Positions 25,161-61,508 of a stretch of 64,000 nt of DNA are shown here, piece by piece; position 1 is the first letter of the stretch; each line of letters opens with the position of its first letter. Below the pieces are notes generated by a model that was not told where the DNA came from, searched no databases, and was given only the letters and a program-made list of their open reading frames with translations. The translations under genes and the position numbers were made by a program. Origin of the DNA: Gavia stellata (lineage: Eukaryota > Chordata > Aves > Gaviiformes > Gaviidae); NCBI RefSeq assembly GCF_030936135.1, contig NC_082597.1, positions 75,808,495 through 75,872,494 on the forward strand, read 5' to 3'.

Positions 25161-25513
25161 CTTAACATATTTATGCATTTATAAAGCCAAACATTAAAAA
25201 AATACTGAGTAGCAAATTCTATCCTTGACGCTCCTCTGCGGGGGCAGCGCCGGGACCAGCCGCCTTGGCAGCGGGGCTCCCCGCGGGGGCGGCCGCTCCC
25301 CCGGGCCCGGCCCCGGCACCCCGCGGCCGCCAGCTCCCGGCGCCGCCCGGCCCGGCCCCGGCGACCCCTGGCAGACGCCGCCCTGCCCTCCGTAGGAAAC
25401 CGGGGGCGCAGGTGCCGGCCCGACGGCCCCTCCCCGCCCCGCGGCGGGGCGGCCAGTCCGAGGGCGCGGCAGCGGCGGCGGGGAGCGCGTGGGGCCTCCC
25501 GGCCGGCGGCGTC

Positions 25514-27822
25514 TCACGGGCCCTCGGCGCAGGGCTCCTCGGCGGCGGCGGTCTCGGCCTCCTCGCCGGGCTCGGCGGCGGCGGCGGCGGCCAGCCCGGC
25601 GGCGGCAGCGAAGGGGTGCGGGAGGTGGGGCGTCGGGGGCAGCCCGGCGGCGGCGGCGGCGGCGGCGGCCGCCTTCTCGGCGGGGCCGAGCACGGAGGAG
25701 AGGCAGGGGAAGGAGGCGGCGGCGGCGGCCGCGGCGGCGGCTGCCTGGGCCGGGATGCCCGGGTAGAGGAGCGGGATGGGGGCGGCGGGGTAGAGGTACT
25801 TCTCCAGGCTGCCTTTATCCAGGAAGGGCTGCATGTAGGCGGCGGCGGCGGAGGGGGAGATGAAGTAGAAGGGCAGGCAGAACGGGGCCGCGGCCGCCGG
25901 CTGTCCGAAGGGGACCCCGCCGCCGCCCGCCCCCAGGGCCATCAGCGAGCCCAGCAGGGCGGCGTCGGGTCTCACCAGCGCCGCCGCCGCCGCCGCCGCC
26001 TCGGCGCCCCGCGCCGCCAGCCCCGGCGGGCCGGGCAGGGGGCTGCCGCCGCGGTCCAGCTTCAGCCGCTTGGGCGCGGGGGGCACCTCGTCCCCCGACG
26101 GCTCCTGCTTGATGGCCAGGGCGGGCAGCGCTCCCCCGGCCGCCGCCGCGGGGCCGCGCTCGGGGCGCGCCTCGCCCTCCCCGCCGTAGCCGCTGTCCGT
26201 GTCCGTGTCGGTCTCGGCGCTGAGCTCGGCGGCGTGAGTCCGCTGGATGACGGGCACGCAGTTAGCCTGGCCCTCCGGCTTGTGGCCCGGCGCGCAGGAC
26301 GGGGCGGGCGGGGAGGAAGAGGAGGAGGATCCCTTGCTGAGGGGGCCCGGCGGCGGGGAGAGGAGCTGGGGGCCGGGGAGGAACTGCGAGGAGATGGAGT
26401 GCAGGTGGCCGAGGAGCTGGGCGCATCGCTGCTCGCGGGGGGTCCAGCTCTCGAAGCGGGAGAGGTACTGCAGCACTTCCTTGGCGCACGTCTGAAAGCC
26501 CGAGTGGAAGGCGTCCAGGTCGGCCTGCACGGGAGACTTCATGGACCGCTCCCCTGCGGGGGAGACCGAGAGGGGACAGCGTTTGCTCGCGGCTCCGGTG
26601 TGGGGTGCCCCGCTCCGCGCCTCCCCCCGCCCGCCCCCGGTGCGCCCCCGCGCCGGCGCCCCCCGGGGCCCGCTTACCGTTCTGCAAAGCGATGATCTTC
26701 TGGTGCTGCTGCTCCGTTAAGGCTGTTAGCGCTTTCAAGTGTTTCAAAGTCAGTTCCAGCACCACCGCTTTCTCCAGGTGTCCCAGCGTCTGCAAAGGCA
26801 AGGGATGGGGGCGGCCCGGCTACCTCCCGGCAGGCTTTGGCCGCCGCCAAACGCCGCCTCCGTTAACTTCGGGGAAACTGGTCCCCGCGAGGCTTTACGG
26901 GCAGGGCCGCCGCCGCAGCCCGCGGGCGGGCAGGCAGGCAGGCAGGCAGCCCGGTGTCCCGCGCCCCCGCCGCCCCGGGGGCTGCGCGGCGGGCAGGCTG
27001 CCGGCGCCTGCATCTGCATGTACTTATACGCCCCTCTGCACCTTACCGTCAATTTCAGATGCTCGGGCAGTAAATCCTTCAGCTGGGCAATGCATTCGTT
27101 AATCCTGTCTCGCCTCTTCTTTTCTATCAGTCTGTGCGGCAGTTTGTACGTTTCCTGCTCAGCAAAATCCGGGAAAGCCAAGCGTTAGACAGAGTCCCTC
27201 GGCACGGCGATCAAAACCAAAACAAATGTCATGCCGACCACATGCCGCGCAAATTGTCGCCGAGGCACCGCTCTCCCCGCCGGGCCAGCTCGCTCGTAAA
27301 CCCGCTTGCAGTTCGGGGGCAAGTTAAAAGCGCAGCCCCCCGGGGATGCTGTCGGCAGTGAAGCTGCGCTGTAAAATTCAGCGAACCCCAAATAAGCGCT
27401 GAAGCGAGAACAGCCCCAGAAACTCACTCTTACCTTGCTCTCGTCCCTCTTCACGCCTCTTTTGGGTTTGCACATATAGAGGGAAGGGTAGTCCAGCCTG
27501 GAGAGAAACACAAAGCATCGGCGAGAGCGAGAGCTAGCCTAGCACCGCCGGAGCGGGCAAACCGAGCCCCAGCGCCGCGCGGGGAGCCGAGCGCTCTGCC
27601 CGAAGGGCCGCGCACGGGACCGCCCGGGTCCGCCCGCGGAGGGAGGCGAGCCCCGCGCCCCGCCGGGGAGCCGGCTCTGCTCCCTGCGCTTCACGGCACT
27701 TTCTCAAGAAGACGACGCGCCGTGGAGACGCGAGACGGAGACACTGCCCCGGCGCCTTACCCTATAAAATCCCTATGCTCCAGTAGCTGCCTCTCCGGCA
27801 AGCGGGAGATTCCTTCATCCAT
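25514..27822 (-). CDS. BHLHE41: BHLHE41 (DEC2/SHARP1), basic helix-loop-helix repressor, complete
   Basis: Five coding exons on the minus strand: 27822-27761, 27497-27434, 27154-27047, 26789-26678 and 26553-25514. All have GT-AG introns of 124-279 bases and matching phases, giving 461 residues against 482 in human. The start, MDEGISRLPERQLLEHRDF, equals the family N-terminus and has a strong Kozak context (G at -3 and +4). The bHLH region spans about residues 45-100: basic part KLPHRLIEKKRRDRINECI with the family proline, helix 2 from HLEKAVVLEL. The Orange domain is about 131-166 (FHSGFQTCAKEVLQYL). The conserved CVPVIQRTH (about 214-222) and TDTDTDSGYGGE (230-241) follow, then IKQEP, a possible SUMO site, and the basic PKRLKLD. 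Exon 5 carries polyalanine runs (about 301-307, 386-395, 410-418). The protein binds CACGTG and represses CLOCK:BMAL1 output; it has no WRPW tail. The last exon is extremely CpG-rich and carries a 476-codon antisense frame that is only a shadow. Confidence 0.98.
26928..26950. repeat. (GGCA)n short tandem repeat in BHLHE41 intron 3
   Basis: Five to six GGCA units in the intron between the exons at 27154-27047 and 26789-26678. It does not touch a splice site. Confidence 0.8.
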
Positions 27823-28639: not shown

Positions 28640-29800
28640 GCACGAAGACGCGCACACGCTTGTTTTCGCGGTGCGGCACCGGCAGCCCGCGGCGCTCCCT
28701 GGCTCGGCGCCGCCGTGCCGCAGCTCTCGCCCCCGCCGCTGCCGCCGCTGCTCCCGGCGGCTCTCCCGCCCGACCTTTGGACGGGAGCCGGATCTGCCTG
28801 CAACGCCAGACCGCCGCAAGATCGTTTCTTATATCCATACGGATATATATATATATCTGCGTGTATAGATACATAAAATATGTATACATACAACATAAAC
28901 ATATCCGTACTTTGACGCTGCGCTCCTTACGGGCAGCCCGCATCCCTGCGGGGCGCAGGGGGTGACATTGGGCGAGGATTTGCACCGGTGCAGCGTGACC
29001 GCCCGCGGCAGCCCCGGGACGGGGCGGGAACCCCCGCGTCCCCCCGCCCTCGTCCCTGCGCGCCGGGCGCGCCCGCGCAGCCCCCGCTCCCCGCCGGCGG
29101 CGGCACCGACAGCCGCCTCCCTAATCCCGTCTCACACTGGTACGAGCACAGGGCCGGCAACGTGACCCGACCTGCTGCCACATCACTGCCGCCGGCAGCA
29201 CCGGGCGGCCTTGCCCCGCCGCCCCCCGCCAGCAGGCGCCGGCAGCCGGCGGCACCGGGCAGCACCGGGCACCCCCCAGCTCGGGGTACCGGGCGCCGTG
29301 CCCCTCCAGCCCCGCACCCCCCCTTGCCGGGCAGCCCGCCAGGACCCCCCTGCCCGCGGAAGAGGGGGGTGCTGCTGCCCCGAGGAAATGGGATGCTCTT
29401 CCCCGTGGCCCGGGCAGAAGCGCTGTGTGTGTGTCCCTGCGTGTGCGCTGTCTCTGCACGCCGGCGCGGCATGTGCGGCCCTGCAACGTGCGGGGTGTGC
29501 GGGGTGTGCAGCGGCCCTGTCCCCACGTGCTGTGCGGGGGGAGAGGAGCTCCCCCCCCGCCCCCGACACAGGGCCGAGCTGGCTGCTTTCTCTCCGGTAT
29601 TCCCGGCGGGAAGCGCAGGCGGGAGGTGTCAGCAGAGGCGATCCATAGAGATGTGTTTATCCCCCCCCCGCCAGCCCCGACCGCTCGCCTTTCCCTTGGT
29701 CCAGCTTTGCTCCCTGCCTCCCGCAGGCTCGCTCCTGGGGGGGCCTGCCCCCCATCCCGGCGCGCAGCGAGGAAAGGGGCCGTTTCGGGCTCCCACAGCA
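28640..29800. promoter_or_regulatory. Distal CpG-rich block upstream of BHLHE41
   Basis: GC- and CpG-rich sequence continuing from the BHLHE41 promoter, interrupted near 28820-28920 by an AT-rich piece with a short TA run. It has frames of up to 278 codons on either strand, all Pro/Ala/Gly/Arg-rich, which I take as composition artefacts. A plus-strand AATAAA sits at 29820-29825. It could host a divergent transcript, but no splice-supported exon is seen. Confidence 0.5.
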
Positions 29801-29879
29801 GCTGGGAGGGAATTACCCCAATAAACAAAGCACCTCCCCGCCAGCCAAAAGAGAGACGAGAGCCTCGCATCATTCCTTT

Positions 29880-30435
29880 CTAGAGATCGTGCTTTACAGG
29901 TAACCTTATCAGGAGGGTAACTCGTGATTTTTACACGCGGGGGGCTGCTGAAACCACGCTGCCCGTACGTAAAGTGCGAATGAGGTTTTAGGAGCAGCTC
30001 TGATGAGGTGTCAGAGGCTCCTGCTCGGCAGGCGAGCGAGTGGCACTGCAGGCTTGTATAGCTCTTTCCCTGTTACCCTGATGACATTTTCACACTGTCA
30101 GTGCAACTAAACTGGGGGCTAAAAATAAACAACATAAATGTATGCCACATGCCTATAGGTTATATTTGGGGATGTCGGAAGGAGAGGCTTGTGGACTGCT
30201 ACAGGGATTGTTGGGAGAATCCGCTGCCAGTCAGAAAAGCCAACTGTTACAGAGGCTGGACTATATAGACCGGCTCCCTTGGGAAAGGGGATTGCAGACT
30301 GCAAGTGAAGTTTGCTGGGTGTCAGCATGTGCCAGCGGTAGTTAACCATGCAGGGTGGCTACTGGTTGCCCCAAGTTGGGCATCCATGTTGGACATCTAA
30401 GAGGGAGCTACACGCTCTTTTGCTAGTCAGTGGAG
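29880..30435. other. Intergenic stretch, nothing recognised
   Basis: Returns to ordinary base composition after the CpG-rich block. No exon, RNA gene or repeat was recognised. Confidence 0.5.
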
Positions 30436-30439
30436 AGAA

Positions 30440-31300
30440 ACAAGGACCTTCAGCATGAAATTCCTCTCCTCCTGGCTGAACTGGTCTTTGAGAAAGCATC
30501 AAGAAAACTGGAGGCACAGCCCAAATAAAAGAAGGAGCTTAACCCTGAGGTAAAGCACATGGAGACCTTTTGGGGGAGTGCTGACTCAAAGGGAGCTTGA
30601 ACTCTGAAAGAAAAGACAGTTTCCTCCAGCCGATTCCTCCCAGGAGCAGGAGAGCAGGGCTTTGCATGGTTTCTATAACTAATATATGGGGTGGGGAGCA
30701 GGGGGTGAGCATTTCTGGAGCATGTCCTTATGGAGCACCTGGAGCATTTCTGGAGCATCTTTGCCAGCTTCATCCTCTCTGGAACAACCTGCAAATCTTC
30801 AAATTGTGGAAACAATGTCCGGAGTGAGACTCGGCTTCTAGGAGGAGAAGTCCTAATGCTGGGTTTCCTCTGGAACAAAGTGGGAATGGAAATCGAAAAT
30901 TACCAAAAGATGCAAAACATGAGCTGAGACAGCTGGAGACTTTGCAAAAAGAGTTCAAGCAACATCTGGAAACTTCTAAGAGAGGTTTATAAGAGGTCAC
31001 CTGCAGACAAGGATAAAAGGCTTCAGTGTCCAGAGAGAGTGCAAAATTCTCCTGGAAGATTCCCAGTTTAAAATGGCAAGATGGATCAAAGCGGTGATCA
31101 GCAGCATGACTATCATGGAAAAGAATGTTTTCCAGAAAATAAGAGGCACAAGAAAAGCTTTGGCAAATTTACAAGCCAAGATGAACCACAGCAAAGAGTT
31201 AAGAAACTGAAGAAATCACTCAGAAAAGGAAATCAAAGGTTTGCAGGTCAGCACAGGAAAAAACAACCTCCTGCTGTAGACAAGGGCTAGCCGTAAGATT
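30440..31300 (+). pseudogene. Broken coiled-coil-like coding remnant (possible gag)
   Basis: Three-frame reading gives protein-like, Lys/Glu/Leu-rich pieces broken by stops, for example ELVFEKASRKLEAQPK (around 30475-30530), HELRQLETLQKEFKQHLE (around 30918-30975) and WIKAVISSMTIMEKNVFQ (around 31080-31140). It lies where gag would be expected relative to the downstream pol motifs. No CCHC knuckle was found, so it could instead be an unrelated pseudogene. Confidence 0.35.
30709..30758 (+). repeat. Two copies of a 15-bp word with 35-bp period
   Basis: GCATTTCTGGAGCAT occurs at 30709-30723 and 30744-30758, with a related TGGAGCACCTGGAGCAT in between. A small degenerate tandem repeat inside the retroelement region. 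Confidence 0.7.
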
Positions 31301-32810
31301 GCCTACTACCAAACACTCGCCACCATTTTCAGTCTGCAGGAGGAAGGAATCAGACTGTCTGTCCCAGCTGAATCAGTGCAAAAGCCACGGTCTTTGAGGA
31401 GAATACATTTGGGAGGTTTATTCAACTCAGTCCATAACCACGGCGTAAGGGAACGGCTCTGAAATAGGGTGTCTAGGAGCCAACTTAATGGGTTCAGCTC
31501 TTATGGCAGCGAGTACTTGCCTTCAGGAAAAAAGATTGAATTATCTAGGCTGGCTGTATGACTAGAATCAACCAGCAAATTAGAGAGAGCTGGTCAGCTG
31601 TGTGCTACAAAGTGGGGGACAAAGAGAATTCAGCTGCAGGATCTGCATCATTTTGGTTGAATAACAAGATAGTACTGAAGACTTCCAGGGTAAATGGACA
31701 TTGACCTATTAATAGGTTTTCAGTTATGGGATGACCAGATTGAGACTGGGGAAAAAAATGAAACAAGAGCACATAAAAACCTGAGCTGGGTGAGAAAAAA
31801 GGTCCATCTGTCCCGGAGCCCAGCAGGAGGTGCCTCGGGAGGAGCAGATGAACAGAGCATGCACGTAATGAAAGCTTCCCAGGCCAGTCTCCCAGGTCCT
31901 GGTGGCTCGTGGTGCACAGACTACCTGAGGCAGAAACGGTGTCTCTGTGTTTAATGGGAAGCCAAAGACGCGTGAGAGGCAGAGGAATTTGCCAAGGTCC
32001 TTAAATCAGGGCTGCAGCAGAGCATTGGGCCAGGAAGCAGACACCGGTGAGAAGTTGGTCGGTCACCGGGGGTCCTGGCAGTGCAGCTCTGTGGCTAACC
32101 CAGAAGAAAAGAGAACTTTCTATTTCAAGAGACTGCAACACATACCTAAGGTATGTAAAACGAGAGAGACAGCGGCCATGCAAAAATGCAGCTGAATTCA
32201 GAAGCAGAAATAAAATAACCTGACTGTGGGAAGGTGGTAGGCCAAGACAAGACACAACATGCAACGAAGCCTTCGCGGTGTTGCAAAATGGGGAAATGGG
32301 GGTAGATCCAGCTTGGAGGGCAGAGTCAGGACCACATTTTTGTGCAGGACTGTTACAAAAACCTTACAAGGAGGAGATTGGTCACAGAGGCACTCCTAGG
32401 CCATGTGAAATGAATGATATTAACAGAGATGCCCCAAAGTCTACCAAACCAGCCAAGCTAGACTGGAACTTGGGCTAATGGTGGCCAAGCTAATCTGCTT
32501 GAAGTGGATAATGGTGACAGGAGAGCGTAGACACTTCCAAACCTGGGAAAGTCAGATTGGTGAAACAGGGGCACTGGAGCAAAAAATGAGGCATGATGTT
32601 GTCCTCAGTGCCCTGTGGTTGTAAATGTGTGATAAACACCAGGAACTGTGCCTTACTTACCCTGTCAGTTTGGAAATTCCCTTTAAAGACATGTTTCAAG
32701 TGAAGCAAACTATTTGCAGGTAGCTGGTCTGCAATGAAAAGCTGTCCTGTCTCCCAGGGCAGTAAAAAATAAAGGTGGCTCCACTCTGAGGTTGCTTCCA
32801 GCCCTGACTG

Positions 32811-33296
32811 ATGGAAGGGTCTGAAACGTGCCTGGAGATCTGGGGCCTCCAGAGACTCTTACCCAACAAGTCAGTCAGATCTTGTGGATATGAAACAGAA
32901 ATGATCCCCATCTGTCTGCTGGATGTTTTCCAGGTGCAGCAATCAGGAACAAGTAAAACAACCTTCCCCCTAAGTCCCCCATCTGAAGTCACTAGAAATG
33001 TGAATGAAGACACCTTGGATGATACCATTGGGTTCAGTTCGATCATTCACAATAGATCTAAAAGCTCTATATTGACAGGCAGAACGGAGCTGAAAGATGG
33101 GGAAAATTGCTGTCTCAGCAAAGCCCAGTCTGGCAATTTAGTGATGGTCAGGAGCTTAAGTAATGCACCAGCTACACTGGAGAGGCTGGTGGGGAAGGCA
33201 TGGCATGCCACGCAAACAGGAGGCCTTGGATGGCCTCAGCCTTTCAAGAAGTCTGTTGTGCTTAGGCTATTTATGGGTGCATGCCGAGACCTTTGA
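32811..33296 (+). pseudogene. Ty3/gypsy reverse transcriptase fragment
   Basis: An open stretch of 161 codons. Near its start ETCLEIWGLQ and VRSCGYETEM correspond to the 'DTL..LGG ... LRSGYWQ.EM' block of Ty3/gypsy RT. SKTTFPLSP resembles 'KTAFSTP'. At 33156-33191 LSNAPATLERLV matches the diagnostic 'FGLSNAPATFQRLM' motif. About 45 extra codons lie before that motif, which looks like an insertion. The catalytic YLDD box is not seen downstream, so the domain is incomplete. RT copies RNA into DNA in retrotransposition; this copy is inactive. Confidence 0.75.
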
Positions 33297-34370
33297 ACAA
33301 GAAGTGGTAGGTGCAGGTACACATGGTTTGTGAGAAGTTCAAGGCTGACAGTCTGTAACTGGTCCCAAAGGAAAGGGAGCTGTTCCAAAAGCAGGTAACT
33401 TAGGTCCGCCACAGAACTGCTGATGGGGAATTTCCACTGATAAAACCAAAACTGAGAGTGCATGGAGCTGGCCCGCTCCCCAGCCACTTGCGGAGGTGCG
33501 GGTCGGTAGGACTCTGCTCCTATTACAGCAGGTTTGTTTGTAGATTTGCTAAGGTTGCACAACCTTGCACAGGCAAGATGACAGAGGGGGAGCATTTCAG
33601 TGCCCAACAGAATGAGATTTAGCAGTTTCAACTAGTGCAATTCTTGCCAGTGGTTAAATTTACTGATAAGTTGTGTTGGTATTTGCACAGGAGGAACACT
33701 ATAGTAAGGGTAGGCCATGCATCCCTGCAATAGCTCATTCTGTGAGCCTAGGAATCCTGAATGCAATTTGTCCGAGTATTAAGGAAAATGTCAATTTTGC
33801 AACTGCACAGTTAACTAGACGCCTGGGCATAAATGGTCTAGTGGCAATGCCTAGTCCAGGCAGCACCTCTGGGGCTCGGTGCAAACAATGTCATGGATCT
33901 GAAATGGAAGAGTTGATTCTTCAAGGGGATGAATGCAGAGAAGGAGATGCTTGTTTCCTCTCTTACAGCCTGTAGATGTGCAAATGCTTCTAGTTCACCC
34001 AGGAGAACCGAGGAAGGGCAATGCCAGGGAGGGAGCGTGGGCTCCTGAACCAGTCCACGCCAGAAGGTGCATCACAGAAAGGATCCCAGTAGGATACAAC
34101 TAGCAAATGAGCTGGGAAACTCAACTGTCCTGGAATTTGGAGCGCAATGAAGTGTATCTTTGGAGTACCAAGGGAAAAGCATTCTGGTCATGGTGAGAAA
34201 GTTTGGAGTTAAAGGTGAAATACTGCATAAAAGTTACAGTGTTTGGAAACAAGCTGTAGAGCACCTTGTTAGGTGATGTCTGGAGCAGGAAGTTCTGAGA
34301 TTATTATTTTAAAACTGCCAAATGTTTTGAACCATACTGGGTTTCTATAGATTTCCAAAAAGCCTTAGTT

Positions 34371-34436
34371 AAGCTAAGGGGAAAATCCTATTGGGTAAGA
34401 TTCAGGAAGGATGTAGAAAATGTGTGCAGGAGATGA
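34371..34436 (+). pseudogene. Integrase zinc-finger region remnant
   Basis: Reads KLRGKSYWVRFRKDVENVCR before a stop, matching the Ty3/gypsy 'L+.+FYW.G.R+DVE..CR' segment at the end of the HHCC finger. The next frame gives NAPIANNGP, like the linker that follows. Frame shifts lie on both sides. Confidence 0.65.
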
Positions 34437-34519
34437 ATGCCCCTATTGCAAATAACGGTCCCACAGAAACACAGAGAGACACCATGAAATAATGTCTGAC
34501 AGAGTCATTTCATTAATGG

Positions 34520-34852
34520 GCTGCGTTGCCTGATATTCTTGGGTTTCTGTCTGAGGCAGATTCTGGGAGCTGCAGACTATTTCACAAAACGCCCTGAAGC
34601 TTGTCTGTTAGGACACTAGTGCCAGATGTCCAAGAGAAAGACATCCTCTCCCTCCAAGTCCTAGGAGGTATGGGAGGATTGCACAAAGCTCAAGGGAGAA
34701 ACACTGAATCCAGAACATTTCAGCAGATCTGTGAGGTGGTTGGGATCCCTAAAACATCTCCATGTGACCACAGCCTGAACGGTTGGTGGGATGTTTTTTT
34801 GCAGACTCTTACAGTCTACTGCTTTGCTCCTCAGAACTGCATGAAGTGGTAA
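34520..34852 (+). pseudogene. Ty3/gypsy integrase core fragment
   Basis: Three adjacent pieces in three frames match the integrase core in order: ALPDILGFLSEADSGS (34523-34570; family 'ALDILGPLPETDSGN'), ADYFTKRPEA (34572-34601; family 'DYFTKWPEA'), and QGRNTESRTFQQICEVVGI followed by PKT (34691-34756; family 'DQGRNFES.LF..CE.LGI.KT'). The expected 'HPQSDG.VERFN' is worn to HSLNGWWDVF. At least two frameshifts are needed to read it, and catalytic Asp/Glu are lost in part (the Asp of DQGRN reads Ala), so it is dead. Confidence 0.8.
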
Positions 34853-34870
34853 GACCCAACATATTCCAGT

Positions 34871-37800
34871 CCTTTTGAAGGCCTCAGGAGTAGCAAAGCA
34901 CTTCTTCACCATTTTGGTGAAAACCTAAGGACTCCAGCGTGCCTCTTTATGGAGTTTTGGGAGAAGAACAAAGACTTTTGCATCATGCATATAAGCACAT
35001 CTTCCCCTTTTTTTTTTTTTAAGTGGAAATCTGGGATATTTTAGTCTTAGAAAAAACAGAGTGAGAATCTTAAAAAGGATAAACCTAGAGCAACACTGTA
35101 GGACTTGCTGTATAAGGGCATACAGTACTGACCTGAATATTTATGGTGGTATACAGAGTACAGTGGGGTCCTGAAACAAAATCCCATGCTGTACCACGTG
35201 GCCCATTAGAAAAGGTACTAGGGCAAACAAAACTTCAGGGTTTTGCTCTCCCCTCCCTGCAAATATAGTTGTGAAAAGCCGAGGCTGGAGAAGTTGAAGC
35301 ACAAATCCCCGTCCTCCCTGCTAGCACCAAACGGGCAGAGATTTGCAGGCAGGCTGCAGGCGCACTGCACGCACCTCGGGAGCACTCTGGGAGTGGCTGC
35401 CTGGAAGGGAATCAAGGAGCAGAAAACTACGAGAAAGGGGAGTACAAATGTTTTGGATTAGTGACAGTAAAATACCTTACTGAAGCATACTGTGTAATTA
35501 CAGGTAAGTAGGAATGTGTCATTCATCGCTTCTTAAATGATTTTCCCTCGTTCTCCGTGTGGTGCGTTTATTAGATCCTTGTCATTTTGAGCTCCTTCAG
35601 GATAAAGGAGGTGGCTGAGAGGGCAGGTGTGGAGCGGGGCTGAGTCCTCCTAAACCCAAGGGTGCAGGACAGGCAGGACAGTTGCCCTCCTCTATAAACA
35701 GTAACCATCCCGTCCCAGACACTTGGCTGCAGACAGGTAAGTGCAAAGAAGCTGAGAGAGAAGGCAGAGAAAAAGCCCAGTGAGCGTTTTTGGGTACAAG
35801 TGCTACTTGGAGCAGGCTGGCTCTGAGCAAAGACCCAGGCTCCTGTCATGCAAATCCTCCTGGGTTCAGGGAAGAAGACCTGGGGTTTTTATGAACAAAG
35901 ACTCTAGGTGAGAGAGCCTCTAAATTCATAATTGGTTTTTCCCCAGAGCTGGGATAATCTTCAAGAACCCACATTTTTGATTGACCTTTAGGGGCAGAAG
36001 ACAGAATAGTGTTTTCTCTGTCTCTTTCATCGTAGACCTTCTGCTTAAAATTGCCCTCAGGCCGTCCTGCCTGTTCTCTTGCTACATGACAAGGGTGCAT
36101 AAGGGCGTACAGGTCTGGAAGCATTGAGCTTTTTAGCTAGAAGGACGGGGAGAAATCAGGGGATCTGTTGGTGCCTGTCTGCTTCTGTCCCTCTGCATTG
36201 TATAAAGAAACAGATAGCACTGGACAGGCAAGCTGAACTATTCCCTGCTGACCTAGGATGGGTACCACCTGCAGTCAAGCCCCAGACCAGAAGCAGGACA
36301 GTACAGAGCTCAGCACAGACGCTCAAGAAAAAGGACAGGCGTGTTTGATGATCACTAAAAACCTGTTGTCCCAGAGAGAAGGATAAGACAGCCCTTAGAC
36401 CCATCCTAGCTTGTCAGGAAGTATGCAGGATACCTCTGCACCTTGTACCAACTGGGAAATACCCCCTCGACCGTTGTGCCTGAATTCCCTGCTCCCTCCG
36501 GGGTGCCCTTTGCTCCCGGACCAGATGGCAGGGATGGTTGCCTGTGCTGGCAGTGCTCCCTGGGGGGTGCAGTGCCACGGGGAGCTACCCCATGGTGCAC
36601 GGGGCTCTGAAGCTTTTGCAAATCCTGCTTGGCAGGGGTCACTTGCCCGCAGTGTTATTCATCTCCCCTTTGTTTTACCAGGCTGCTGCTGCTGCTGCTC
36701 TGCACGGCGCCTGGCTGCATGTGAGCAGTGGCGGTGGCAGGCCTGGCAAGCCTCCCTTCTTCACAGGGAGACTCTCCTCCCCTCGGATGAGCAGGTTTCC
36801 AGACAGCTCCCTTTTATGAGGACGGATTTCAGCAAGGCTCTAAAAACCAGCCTCGTTTAACTGGTCTCCCAGTCTTGTCCTCTGCATCCTGCTGGGGAGG
36901 TATTGCACGACCCCCTTTAAGCTGTCGGCAGGCAGGCTTTCAACGTGGCAAGGGGGCCGGGCTGTGTCTGGGCAAATGTTTTCTTTCTGTGGTCAGAAAG
37001 CAGGGCTGGGCAAAGGCACCATGCCCGAGGCACATCCTGACAATGAGCCCCTGCCCACCCAGGCCACGCTGGGTCCCGATCTCCCACGTCGACGGCTGGG
37101 ACAGTGAGGGTGGCAGCGACCTTGGGTCTTCCCCAGGGGCAGCGCTTTTCCCTTGGGAGCAGCAGAGACCCTCGTGCTGGTGGCGAGGAGCCCTCCTTGG
37201 TGGGGGGGAATGGGGGGGCACCAGAAAGAGAGCCCAGGGTGCGTCGGTGGGATGGGGACACGCCTGTGCCACCCACAGAGCCCACTTCTGAGGCACGCTG
37301 GCACCCGCTGTCTCCGGCGGCTTGGCTCAGCATTGACGCCCTGCTAAAAGGTGGCGGGCAGCCTGTGCATCTCAGCATGATCACTGGAGATTCCTGCTCT
37401 CAGGTAGACGTTGCTGAGGTTGCAGTTGCATCATTCCCTGCCACCCCACATGCACACACCCCACAACCATGAAGGTCCAAAACATCTTTTCATAAAAACT
37501 CCTTGCCTCCATGGCTCTGAGCACAAACCTGCTATGCCTACTGGTGGCCTTGGCAAAGAACAGAGGATGAAATCACCACAGCCAAGGCCACGCTTCAGCG
37601 TGTACCCATTAAAGCATTATGAATTTATGTCAGGGTTGGAAAAGGTCCGTGGTATGGAAAGGTTAGTGTTTTGTTTTATTGTCCTTCACTTCGTTTACTG
37701 TCCTGAACAAGGTGCAAAGAGGAAGCAATAGGTTGGAGGGGTGCAGGTCTCCTGGAAGCGAGCAGGTAAGGCATGATATCCAAGACAGGGAGAGTAGCAG

Positions 37801-39224
37801 GCGATGCTTGTCACAGCTCCTCATGTTCAGAGCTGGGTGAGCAGCAGGTCCCCGTGGGTCTCTTCTGCCGCGATGAGAAGAAGGCACGCAGCCATTTCAC
37901 CACTTTCCTTGAACTTTACTCCGTGACTTTTCTAAAACAGCCACGGCCGAATTTCAGCTCACGAAGCTCTGTACAGTGGTCCAGGCCTTTGTGAGGAGGT
38001 CTGACTTGCGGGCTTTGCTGCACAGCACAAGCCCTTCTTTAAAACACCTGGTGAGTGAAGTCTTGAGCAAGGTAATAAGGCCTTGACCAAAATGGTGTTC
38101 TCTGAAGAGCAGAGGCACTATGAGGTACAAATACTTGTACTGGGCAGGCAGTCAGGCAAGCAGGACCACTACCACATCCCCGTTTCTCAGCCCCACAAGC
38201 CTAATGGTGAAGGAGACAAGAAAGGTTGGATTTTTAAATTACTTTTCCATTTTGCAGATTAATACTGTAACTCGGGGTTTTTTTTGGTTTTGAACACCTT
38301 TTCTTGGTGTAGCGAAAACGATGTAGAGGAGTTTCCTGAAGCATCTGTATGCCAGGGAGCCCTTGGGGGCTTGGCTGTCCTGTAACACTGGCTCTGCAGG
38401 AGGGGGACAGGAGCGGGGCACCAGCACCGGTGTAATGGCAAGTGCCTGCAGCCAGACAGTACCTCTCCTTCGAGTCTCCGGCTTCTGTGGCTGCCGAAAC
38501 AGAGCAAAGGGGCACCCGTCCATCCGCTCCCAGGAACACAACCCCCAATGGCTGTTTTTTTAGCCTCCTTTCTGGGGTTGTCCACTGGAAGAGTCTCCTC
38601 AAAGCACTTGGATGCATCTCAATGTGGCCAAGTCCATGCTGGCAGTCTGAGATCCTACTAGCACCGGCAACAGATGCCAGAATCAGGCAAATTTCAGATC
38701 TGTACCTCTGTGCCTGTGGAGTTCAGGCCAGCTGACAAGCAGAGACTTTCTCAGCAGAGGGAGGAAAATGACCCTAGATGCCGTGTTGACATTAATCACC
38801 CTGCTTATGCCGCTGTCTGGCAGCTGAAACTCTGGCACTGTGAGAGCCAGTGGCAGCTTCCAGCCTGGTCCTGCATGCAACGTGGTGCCTTAGGGATCTA
38901 TAATCAAAGTTTTGATTATTAGGGTAAAATTGGTCATAAAGAGGAAACAGAATGAAATAAAATGAAAGTGCAGCTATCAGCTTCCCTTGAATTTAACTCG
39001 ATCTGTTTTAATTTAAATGAAAAATGTCACATAACTTATCTATAACACTTGGAAGCACTAGTCAGGAACATATTGCCATCGCTAGATAGTGACACGTTTT
39101 AGCGGTAGTCTGATGGATGTAAAGCTCTTTAATATGCACAGAAAACCAAATTTCAAATGCTCAAAAACATTTGGGCCTCATCGAGAAAGTATGGAGCTGG
39201 GTCAGGAAGAAATGCACACTGCCT
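34871..39224. other. Intergenic stretch, no gene seen
   Basis: Ordinary sequence with a GC-richer part at about 36.4-37.5 kb, where several frames of 92-155 codons overlap on both strands. They lack recognisable motifs and conflict with each other, so I do not call them. A (GCT)n run of about six units is at 36682-36699. Confidence 0.5.
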
Positions 39225-55100: not shown

Positions 55101-55934
55101 CCCTCTCTCTTTTAGGTTACATAAACAATCTTCCTAGTATGGATAACCTGCAGCCCTGGAAACTCGCTCAGCAGATGTTCAGCTCCATGCGCTACCAGTA
55201 CCTGCATGGAAGCGCCAGTCCTCATCGCTGGTCCCTGTCTGCCTCATCATAAAACATGCCTAGCTGTGCTTTTGCAACTTTGGGGAAGAGACAGGATTCT
55301 TTTGGGCTCCCCAGGATCTTAATTTGAATTTTTATTTGTGTTAATTTTATACTTTCCATACACGTAGTCAACTCACTCCCACTGAAATGCACCTATTTAA
55401 TCTGATTCAGCCGGTGTACGAAAGGTGCCCGTTGTATGCCTGGTGCTGCGTGGGTTCAGCGAGTTACGCTCTGCGTGCCAGTAATCCCCTGGGGAGCCAC
55501 GGCATGATGAGCTCCTACCTGCCCGCTCGGTGCGCACACAGACACAGGCACTTGATCGCTCCCGGCTCCCTGGCGAGACAGATTTCCCTCCTGTTCATCA
55601 GCTGGCAATGCAGAGTTTCTGCAGGCTGATTGCCTGTCCAGCTCCTCCAGATACACGCACACACGTGTGTGCTCACCTGTGTAGCCGTGGCAGCACGCAT
55701 GCTCAGCCGTGTGTGCACAGCCAGCCCCCGTGCAGAGCTGGTGCCTGCATGTTGGCAGTTCGCTACCCCCCTTGAATCCCCCTCTTCTCTGGGCTATATG
55801 TGGCATTTCGAAGCTCTGACAATCTGCTCCAAATGTTTTCCATATTTGTTCAGCCTCTTTGATTCAAATACCAGGAACAACTCAGCCAGCACAAAGCGAA
55901 GCTTTGGGGGGCAAAAAACCTCACACCCCCATCA

Positions 55935-55961
55935 GTGCGCGCACACACACACACGCACGTG
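55935..55961. repeat. Alternating GC/AC tract just before the SSPN start
   Basis: 27 bases of unbroken alternation (GTGCGCGCACACACACACAC then GCACGTG) ending 20 bases before the SSPN ATG. It is a candidate Z-DNA tract and a variable microsatellite in the 5' UTR or leader. Confidence 0.8.
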
Positions 55962-55981
55962 AAAACCTAAAGTTCATCGGC

Positions 55982-56320
55982 ATGGGAAAGGAGGAGGAGA
56001 AGAAACCCCAGCACAGCACGTCCCTGAATAACCAGAGCCAGGCAGGGAAGGCACCCGAAGGGGAGAAAAGCACCGACTCGAGCAAGACGAGCAAGACACA
56101 GGAGTCCGTGATGAAGAAGAAGAAGCAGAAGAAAACCAAGGGGGATCCCAAAACTGTCCAGGAGGAGGAATCCCACACTTGTTGCGGCTGCCGTTTCCCG
56201 CTGCTGTTTGCTTTGTTGCAGCTGGCATTAGGCATCTCTGTAACAGTGCTGGGCTTCCTTATGGCAGGCATCAGTTCTTCTCTGCTAGTCAGAGACACTC
56301 CATATTGGGCTGGGATAATT
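55982..56320 (+). CDS. SSPN: SSPN (sarcospan), first coding exon
   Basis: Encodes the first 113 residues of sarcospan, a four-helix, tetraspanin-like membrane protein of the sarcoglycan part of the dystrophin-glycoprotein complex in muscle. The Met at 55982 has a strong context (G at -3 and +4) and starts with the family's MGK. A lysine-rich cytosolic part with KKKKQKKTKG at about 45-54 comes next, then HTCCGCRFPLLFALLQLALG, first membrane segment about 72-96, and SSSLLVRDTPYWAGII, matching the human protein closely. The exon ends ATT|gtaagc at 56320 in phase 0, the known junction before the human Val-Cys-Leu-Val. The frame is open upstream to 55859 but without homology. The remaining exons are not in the window. 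Confidence 0.93.
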
Positions 56321-58844
56321 GTAAGCATAAAGTCTGTTTCTCCGTAAAGTGCCTTTGCCAACATTAATGCAAGCTGCATGATGCTCCACTTTAGACTAAC
56401 CAACTGCATGCACAACACCATTTGAGTTATGCTAACTATAAATATTCCTGGGATTAAATGTCTGGGTATACTTTTCCAAGGAAACTGCTCCTGCAGAATA
56501 ACATGATCTTTCGTATTCTTCCCTGAAGTACCCAACAGACCTTAATAAAATACAGGGTTGCTGTTCACTAGATGTATGTATTAGCTTGCGCTTTGCAGTG
56601 AACTCCTGTCTGGTGATGCTGAAAAAAAAAGTTGAATTCTTATGCTGCCTTCCCTCTTTCCCCACCAAACCATAACAATCAGGTTTTAGAAGCGAGAGCA
56701 TAACTCCCGACTTTTAGCCGGGCGCGTGGGTAATAGCGAGAGGAGAGAAATGGCTGTCTTTTGAGCTTCCTTGCTGTGCTGTGTTGAAGAACCGCTGCGA
56801 TTTAACCCCTTTCCTGCCTGCTGCTCCCCAACTTCTCGCCAACGGGAGGGAGAGACCGCACATGGCCGTGGGGAGGGGGATGGCACTGGTGGATGGGTAA
56901 TGTGGGAGGGAAAGGGAGCCCGTCCCAGGGCCCGCTGGTGGCTCCCGCCAAGTCACGCGCAGTTTCGAGTGACACGCCAGCCTCGCTGCACAGGCTGGTG
57001 GGGATGGGGTAAAGGGCAGGGTCCTGCCGGGCGTAAATAGGAGGCATCCCCGGGGGGGAAGCCTGGGCTGGTCCCCCGCACCGGCTGCCCCTGCACAGGT
57101 GGGGAGGAGGTGCGGGGGTCTCGGTGCCGTGCGCGGTGTGGCCCCACTTGGCCGTGTGCTCGGGGACGTGCGGTTTGCCTGTGGAGAGGCAGGGTCAGTG
57201 ATTACGAGCCTGGGATGTGCCATGGATGTGATTTAGCATGCAGTCTTTTTCCCTAGGCAGCAGGCTTCAGGAAAATATGTATTGATGTGTTAGCACTGTT
57301 TTGGGTATTGTTAGACTGTAAGAACTCCCAGCAAATAAACAAAACAGCTATGGGAGCATCTTCCATAAATGTAATTCCTTGCCAGTTGGAGAATTACCTG
57401 AACACCTGAACTCTTTGGGGTTTGCTGTGTTAATCCTGCTGGGCGACCCTCCAAAGAGGGGAAGGAGCAGGACCTGAGCTCCCAAAGGAGGAGCTCCTCT
57501 TACTCATCTCGCCCTTCTTGCTTCTCTTCCGACTGAAGAGGTATCAAAGATTTTAGCGATGTTTCACGGGGCGAGAGCCTGCCCTTGCTCGGGAGGAGAA
57601 CTTCCTCCTGGGGTTTTTGCTGTTACAAGCGAGGGGGGAGTCTGGATGATAAAGTAGCAGCATGTGACATTTTCACTCCTCTTGTTTATTTTGGGTATTC
57701 TGGAGGTCCGATTATGTCTTTTCCAGACAGCACTAGTAGCATCCGAGGTTTGAAATAGCTTTTTCACTAGAAAAAGCTGGGGAAAGAGTGAGCTGGACTG
57801 AACCAGTGTATGGCCAGGGATATGAGAAAAGCCATGGAAGCGGCCCCTGGCCCATGTGAATGTCATCACTGTCCAAACAGCAGCATCTGAGACATCCACA
57901 TACACCTGATCTCCCTTGGGGAGGCCTGAAACCCCACAAAAATCACTACTTTCTGAAGTCTGAGCTATAACCCCTCTCGTTTTTAGCAGCAGCCGCTGGC
58001 AGTGGTGACGTTTGGATGACCAGACGAGGCAAAGCTCAGTCGCTTTCAGAGTTCCCCCCTGAAAAACAGGCAAAACTCGCCGTGTGCCTTCCTGAGCTGA
58101 TGCCCAATTCCAAGCAAAACTCAGCTCTCAGCCGTGGTGGTCGTTGTTTTGCACTCACCAGCGGGCCAGGATAACCCCTGGGGAACACATCTCCCAGGGC
58201 TATGCTGGCTGTGGGGGGTCAGGGCGTTGGTTTGCTTCATGTTACGGGGTGCCCCGGCTGCCGGGAAGAGCAGTTCACCCTGGGGGCTGCAGGTGGGGAC
58301 CCGTGGGGAGGGTTACTGTACCCGCAGTTTGAGTCAGAGAGTGACTCTCACCCTGGGGACTCCGGTGCGATGTTGAGCCCCCGGCACGTTCAAGTGCGGT
58401 TTGATTTCTGGGTGTGTGGGTCACAGGGTGCTGCTGGTGAGCTGTGGCGGGGAGCGTGCTGAGGACCAGCCTCTGGAGAGCTGGGGGGAAACTGGTCCAT
58501 GAAGGAGGACCCTTGGCTAGGAGGTGTGGCTGGGCGTCCTATGGGCTGGCTCTTGGGCTGCTGTGGGAGGCTGCATGGAGGGCGTATAGGTAGGGGATGG
58601 ATGACCCGGGTGCTGCTCCAGAACAAACCTTGTGGCAGAAGGTGACTTCCTGAAACTCATTTATTTGCACAGAAATGAGCACCAGAACAGAAAGATGTGG
58701 TGTAAAATATCAGAGCATATTTGTTTTAGTAGCATCCCACTCAAGTGCTCTTTTTAAAGGACTTGATTAGTATTCAGAATCAAGAACTTAAAAAATCTAT
58801 TATCGAGACCTTTTTAGCAACATTAGAGATAATGGGTGAAGCTC

Positions 58845-61412: not shown

Positions 61413-61508
61413 TGTATACAGGTATCTGGGGACAAAAGGACAGTGCCATGAGATATAAACTGTATACAGGTATCTGGGGACAAAAGGACAGTGCCGTGAG
61501 ATATAAAT
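61413..61508 (+). repeat. 48-bp tandem duplication
   Basis: Two adjacent 48-base units, 61413-61460 and 61461-61508, both starting TGTATACAGGTATCTGGGGA. They differ only at one internal base (CCATGAG versus CCGTGAG) and at the last base. High identity suggests a recent duplication. It lies in SSPN intron 1. Confidence 0.92.

Follow-up and report, generated by a model that had tools for sequence, protein, structure and literature searches.

A very probable Ty3/gypsy retrotransposon remnant between a BHLHE40/41-type gene and an SSPN-like piece in Gavia stellata

The stretch analyzed here, referred to as the window, comprises 64,000 nucleotides of Gavia stellata (NCBI RefSeq assembly GCF_030936135.1, contig NC_082597.1, positions 75,808,495 to 75,872,494 of the forward strand). 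About 1.8 kb of it, flanked by a BHLHE40/41-type gene and an SSPN-like piece, very probably represents the decayed remnant of one copy of a Ty3/gypsy long terminal repeat (LTR) retrotransposon. A sequence-only reading had placed a fossil of this family at 30436-34870, with reverse transcriptase (RT) preceding integrase. We compared the window with two Ty3/gypsy elements, the live L167 and L085, and the following features were distinguished.

33006-33191, plus strand: RT palm remnant ending in LSNAPATLERLV (tblastn with the RVT_1-bearing piece of L167, 25.0 bits, E 0.09)
33156-33191, plus strand: RT motif LSNAPATLERLV (plus-strand translation and block list)
33380-33565, plus strand: RT thumb remnant with VGLCSYYSRFV and one in-frame stop (tblastn with L167, 33.9 bits, E 5e-4)
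34356-34466, plus strand: integrase zinc-binding (H2C2) remnant with one in-frame stop (tblastn with L167, 35.0 bits, E 2e-4)
from 34371, plus strand: integrase motif KLRGKSYWVRFRKDVENVCR (plus-strand translation and block list)
34463-34552, plus strand: start of the integrase core (DILGFLS stretch), read in a different frame, with two in-frame stops (inside the L085 match 34406-34627)
34572-34601, plus strand: integrase core ADYFTKRPEA (direct reading; signature shared by L085; no statistic of its own)
34679-34810, plus strand: integrase core remnant QGRNTESRTFQQICEVVGI..., with QGRNTESRTFQQICEVVGI from 34691 (tblastn with L167, 36.2 bits, E 3e-5)
33566-34000, plus strand: expected place of RNase H, no recognizable homology (diagonal test of L167 segments)
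30101-33005, plus strand: purine-rich tract, unproven candidate for the decayed gag, protease and 5' part (composition; no homology)

The four motifs on which the sequence-only reading was built, LSNAPATLERLV, KLRGKSYWVRFRKDVENVCR, ADYFTKRPEA and QGRNTESRTFQQICEVVGI, were all borne out on the plus strand by the translation and the block list. The three pol frames of L167 were then used as tblastn queries against the entire window in six frames, and chance was controlled for by 300 shuffled windows, in which dinucleotides were preserved within 2-kb blocks, and by reversed queries. The best matches in the whole window all fell at the four pol blocks. The shuffled windows reached at most 30.0 bits with the integrase-core query, 30.4 bits with the query covering thumb, RNase H and zinc domain, and 27.3 bits with the RT-palm query, and the reversed queries scored 24.3 bits at best; none of the 300 shuffles reached the thumb, the zinc or the integrase-core match. 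Furthermore, the four matches followed one another as RT palm, RT thumb, integrase zinc domain and integrase core, and their offsets relative to L167 spread by no more than 104 nt: nucleotides 1839 to 3597 of L167 (1758 nt) correspond to 33006 to 34679 of the window (1673 nt), with 75 of 212 aligned residues identical. Integrase (34356-34810) is thus downstream of RT (33006-33565), opposite to the arrangement of Ty1/copia. These collinear matches, three of the four being significant, uphold the proposed degraded Ty3/gypsy pol, and the claim that the order and spacing of the motifs fit this family agrees with L167 to about 100 nt.

That the motifs are chance look-alikes within a purine-rich tract is hardly conceivable after this control. 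They are short, single profiles remained under their cut-offs, the RT-palm match lies inside the shuffle range, and the DYFTKxPE pattern alone is present in many unrelated bacterial and phage contigs; however, three matches scored above every one of the 300 composition-preserving shuffles, and all four keep a collinear order with the right spacing. A chance origin was therefore rejected on the shuffle result, provided that the shuffling is adequate.

The second element, L085, gave a lowest E of 0.077 against the window, from two BLAST-linked matches at 34359-34430 and 34406-34627. Singly, these scored 22.7 and 23.1 bits and were outscored at 25305-25415 (24.6 bits) and 35016-35138 (23.5 bits). 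The DILG and DYFTK blocks are accordingly weaker evidence than the remaining blocks.

The same blocks bear on a second explanation, a decayed endogenous retrovirus instead of a Ty3/gypsy retrotransposon, which we consider improbable. Retroviral and Ty3/gypsy integrases are homologous, as seen between L085 and foamy virus integrase (E 5.8e-13), and both of these carry the W...KDV motif of the zinc domain. The DYFTKxPE stretch, however, agrees with Ty3/gypsy L085, whereas the aligned foamy virus stretch differs, and the RT-to-integrase distance is within about 100 nt of that in L167, the corresponding stretch of retroviruses being longer. Moreover, no retroviral chain in the PDB was matched, in a search that is insensitive to fossils and did not match any Ty3 chain either.

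Several results weigh against a Ty3/gypsy assignment. At least 5 of the 300 shuffles scored above the 25.0 bits of the RT-palm match, which is not significant alone and therefore counts through collinearity only; the Ty3/gypsy-type RT thus consists of a significant thumb block and a palm block that is collinear and by itself within chance. In a Pfam scan of ten plus-strand pieces of 30980-34849, a set that did not include the ADYFTKRPEA piece, one piece was assigned to Integrase_H2C2 at E 0.01, with 16.4 bits against a cut-off of 25.5, and no RT profile was reported. NCBIfam gave no relevant match for four window pieces, and PDB searches with three window pieces, which are insensitive to fossils, retrieved no relative, neither a retroviral nor a Ty3 chain. 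All seven L167 segments covering RNase H (expected at about 33565-33963) ranked no better than 14 of 40 against their shuffles in the diagonal test described below. Similarly, a gapped alignment of the flanks (29800-32300 versus 34810-38500) that would bring out LTRs scored 211, which was equalled by 56 of 100 shuffled pairs. Finally, the available reference elements are few and distant. Of translated comparisons like those that the sequence-only reading had proposed, tblastn with L167 gave matches, whereas the Pfam and NCBIfam profiles were under cut-off or silent.

Among the other rows of these searches, the integrase-core piece matched phosphofructokinase alone in Pfam (E 0.096). This and further weak Pfam matches (EB1, ARTD15 and DUF families) were regarded as chance, as were three influenza hemagglutinin rows in the PDB search (E 0.81-1.1). 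No retroelement profile was found in five minus-strand pieces of 30450-33631, two plus-strand pieces of 35222-35508, nine upstream plus-strand pieces (30585-32621) or one downstream piece.

The probability that the stretch is a domesticated integrase gene like GIN1 or GIN2 is close to nil. The two top scores do come from the zinc and core blocks of integrase, as such a gene would lead one to expect; an RT thumb block is present too, however, the frame is broken, and GIN2 sits between OGFOD2 and ABCB9 (PMC3424704). We rejected this candidate on finding no intact, RT-free integrase frame.

To delimit the remnant, 52 segments of L167, each of 24 residues, were placed on the window via the four matches and compared with 40 shuffles each. 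Eight of the 52 beat all 40 shuffles, all of them from pol, and six of these eight overlap the matches that set the diagonal. The two new ones are expected at 34029 and 34496, about one of 52 being expected by chance. RNase H is well conserved between L167 and L085, and the gap between the RT and integrase blocks has the right length for it; the segment expected to hold it, lacking homology, either decayed fast or consists of replaced DNA. This segment (33566-34000) is less purine-rich than its immediate neighbors and contains a 19-nt inverted repeat pair (33607-33625 and 33725-33743, 84%). For gag and protease, none of the 17 L167 segments beat all 40 shuffles, the best being exceeded by one of 40.

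Recognizable homology thus covers 33006-34810 of the proposed 30436-34870, and tests of 30436-33000 gave none. The extension back to 30436 has the purine-rich plus strand as its sole support. Purines make up 56.8% of the plus strand in 30101-35100 and 49.8% in the remaining window, and no separate 5-kb stretch of the window departs as far from 50%; the purine content of L167 is 56.4% and that of L085 is 52.3%. The bias is compatible with a longer element without proving one. The self-alignment suggested for LTRs turned up no pair in either the ungapped repeat search or the gapped comparison. This was not counted against membership in the family, because old or truncated copies may lack LTRs. 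A search for further copies in the window by self-blastn (E 1e-3, dust) returned the trivial match only, and the 29.8-36.5 kb query gave four matches against the window at E 0.36; single-copy repeats are not recognizable by self-comparison and call for a repeat library.

The first reference element was reached through a peptide of the window. The pattern DYFTKxPE, derived from the window peptide, was scanned against IMG/VR and GTDB contigs, where it occurred in 34 stretches and in at least 119 stretches, respectively. Among the listed loci ending in PE rather than PD, with contexts judged by eye, one Ty3/gypsy element was found, L085, the gag-pol of which carries RVT_1, RNase H, Integrase_H2C2, rve and a zinc knuckle in Pfam. 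Part of the L085 protein then retrieved three plasmid records, L167, L168 and L169. L167 was thus found via L085 and not picked for its likeness to the window, although L085 itself had been found by the window-derived pattern. The frames of L167 contain RVT_1, RNase H, Integrase_H2C2, rve, protease and gag models; the distant L168 and L169 served for residue invariance only. The pattern FGLxNAPxxF gave 13 IMG/VR stretches, none like L085 at E 1e-3, two protein scans of IMG/VR yielded no further relatives, and a tblastn search of phage records with the L085 pol found a single weak match, to a Listeria phage (E 3e-4).

L085 (JABXGY010000355.1, 1-4384) is a contig of an archaeal metagenome-assembled genome with a Ty3/gypsy gag-pol of eukaryotic kind, where it is probably contamination. 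L167 (NZ_CP087956.1, 1-5332) is filed as a Wolbachia plasmid, its content being a Ty3/gypsy retrotransposon, and the record is probably DNA of the host moth. L168 and L169 (NZ_CP065944.1 and NZ_CP065945.1) come from chicken ileum and are filed as plasmids of Bacillus licheniformis, without annotation; both carry Ty3/gypsy-like pol frames and are probably eukaryotic DNA within the assembly.

The remnant is disrupted. Its six readable blocks lie in frames 0, 2, 0, 2, 0 and 2, giving five frame changes, and contain four stops, so that no pol protein is possible. In the blocks, L167 and L085 have 70 residues in common, 32 of which (46%) are retained in the window; 43 of the common residues also occur in L168 or L169, and 19 of these are retained. 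Over the same blocks, the live L168 carries 30 of 65 of the residues that L167 and L085 share, and the live L169 carries 36 of 83. A retention of 46% therefore requires no decay if the ancestor was as distant as L168 or L169, which makes it unusable as a clock; a simulation would translate it into about 0.4 substitutions per site, a value that was not used and could be no more than an upper bound. The choice of readable blocks biases the estimate further. Nevertheless, the frame changes and stops within 1.8 kb, together with the lack of a recognizable LTR pair, indicate a long decay, and the insertion is likely old, without a date.

Taking the stretch as a Ty3/gypsy remnant, its history would follow that of the family. 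The live ancestor would have copied its own RNA by its own RT and RNase H, and its own integrase would have inserted the DNA. After insertion, the copy would no longer have been maintained, and the stops and frameshifts seen here built up. Gag, protease, RNase H and LTRs, for which no signal was found, may have become unrecognizable or been lost.

As for the surroundings, a bHLH domain (PF00010, E 1.5e-9, within 27035-27172) and a Hairy_orange domain (PF07527, E 1.6e-10, within 25517-26716) on the minus strand identify a gene of the BHLHE40/41 type; it is named BHLHE41, a clock gene, because of the neighboring gene. For the plus-strand piece 55820-56344, a match to the CD20-like family was obtained at E 3.4e-6 and 27.7 bits, just under the cut-off of 27.9; we take this piece to resemble sarcospan (SSPN). 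The fossil lies between the two, upstream of the bHLH exon by about 6 kb. Its placement between BHLHE41 and SSPN in the sequence-only reading is supported to the extent of a BHLHE40/41-type gene and an SSPN-like exon. A 48-bp unit occurring twice at 61413-61507 (97% match) is the cleanest tandem repeat listed for the window.

This position raises the question of whether the remnant was retained between BHLHE41 and SSPN for a regulatory or structural role, which is unlikely by a wide margin. It is still readable, at a distance of about 6 kb on the upstream side of the bHLH exon, and its 46% residue retention in the blocks matches that of distant live elements. The frame changes and stops, however, mean that no pol protein has been preserved, and the block retention is no sign of selection, because the blocks were chosen for readability. 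No result here demonstrates the earlier suggestion of a piece kept for some reason, and a kept pol protein is excluded. Most likely, the remnant is without function.

Compared with known systems, the remnant shares RT palm, RT thumb, integrase zinc domain and integrase core, at near-equal spacing, with L167 (filed under a Wolbachia of the moth Corcyra cephalonica), which differs in having open frames, whereas the frames of the window copy are broken and its RNase H, gag and protease are not recognizable. MamGyp-int/MamGypLTR are Repbase fossil Gypsy elements of mammals (PMC5753468); these are likewise old Gypsy remnants in an amniote, although of mammalian families, and are set beside the window by description only. 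In the spotted owl, 111 Gypsy/DIRS1 copies totaling 14,921 bases are given (PMC5629816), also Gypsy-class sequences in a bird, at about 134 bases each by division, whereas the window keeps pol blocks over 1.8 kb. In two further sources, 15,529 Gypsy copies (8.7 Mb) are reported for the gyrfalcon (PMC9997569), and Gypsy is described as absent from avian and mammalian genomes and as making up about 3% of crocodilian ones (PMC7397244). The gyrfalcon count conflicts with the other sources and may reflect an effect of classification. Titles and abstract openings, with incomplete coverage, contained no account of a fossil at this locus, which says little.

The fossil is a further example of an already known kind of element. 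It is very unlikely that, before the divergence of living birds, part of it was co-opted to serve the BHLHE41-SSPN interval as conserved regulatory DNA; if true, this would explain a readable pol in a lineage from which Gypsy is said to have disappeared. A bird Gypsy fossil with a traceable RT-to-integrase order is a marker of the last insertions on the line to birds, and its orthologous presence or absence in crocodilians and turtles would date the insertion; otherwise, it is ordinary genomic debris.

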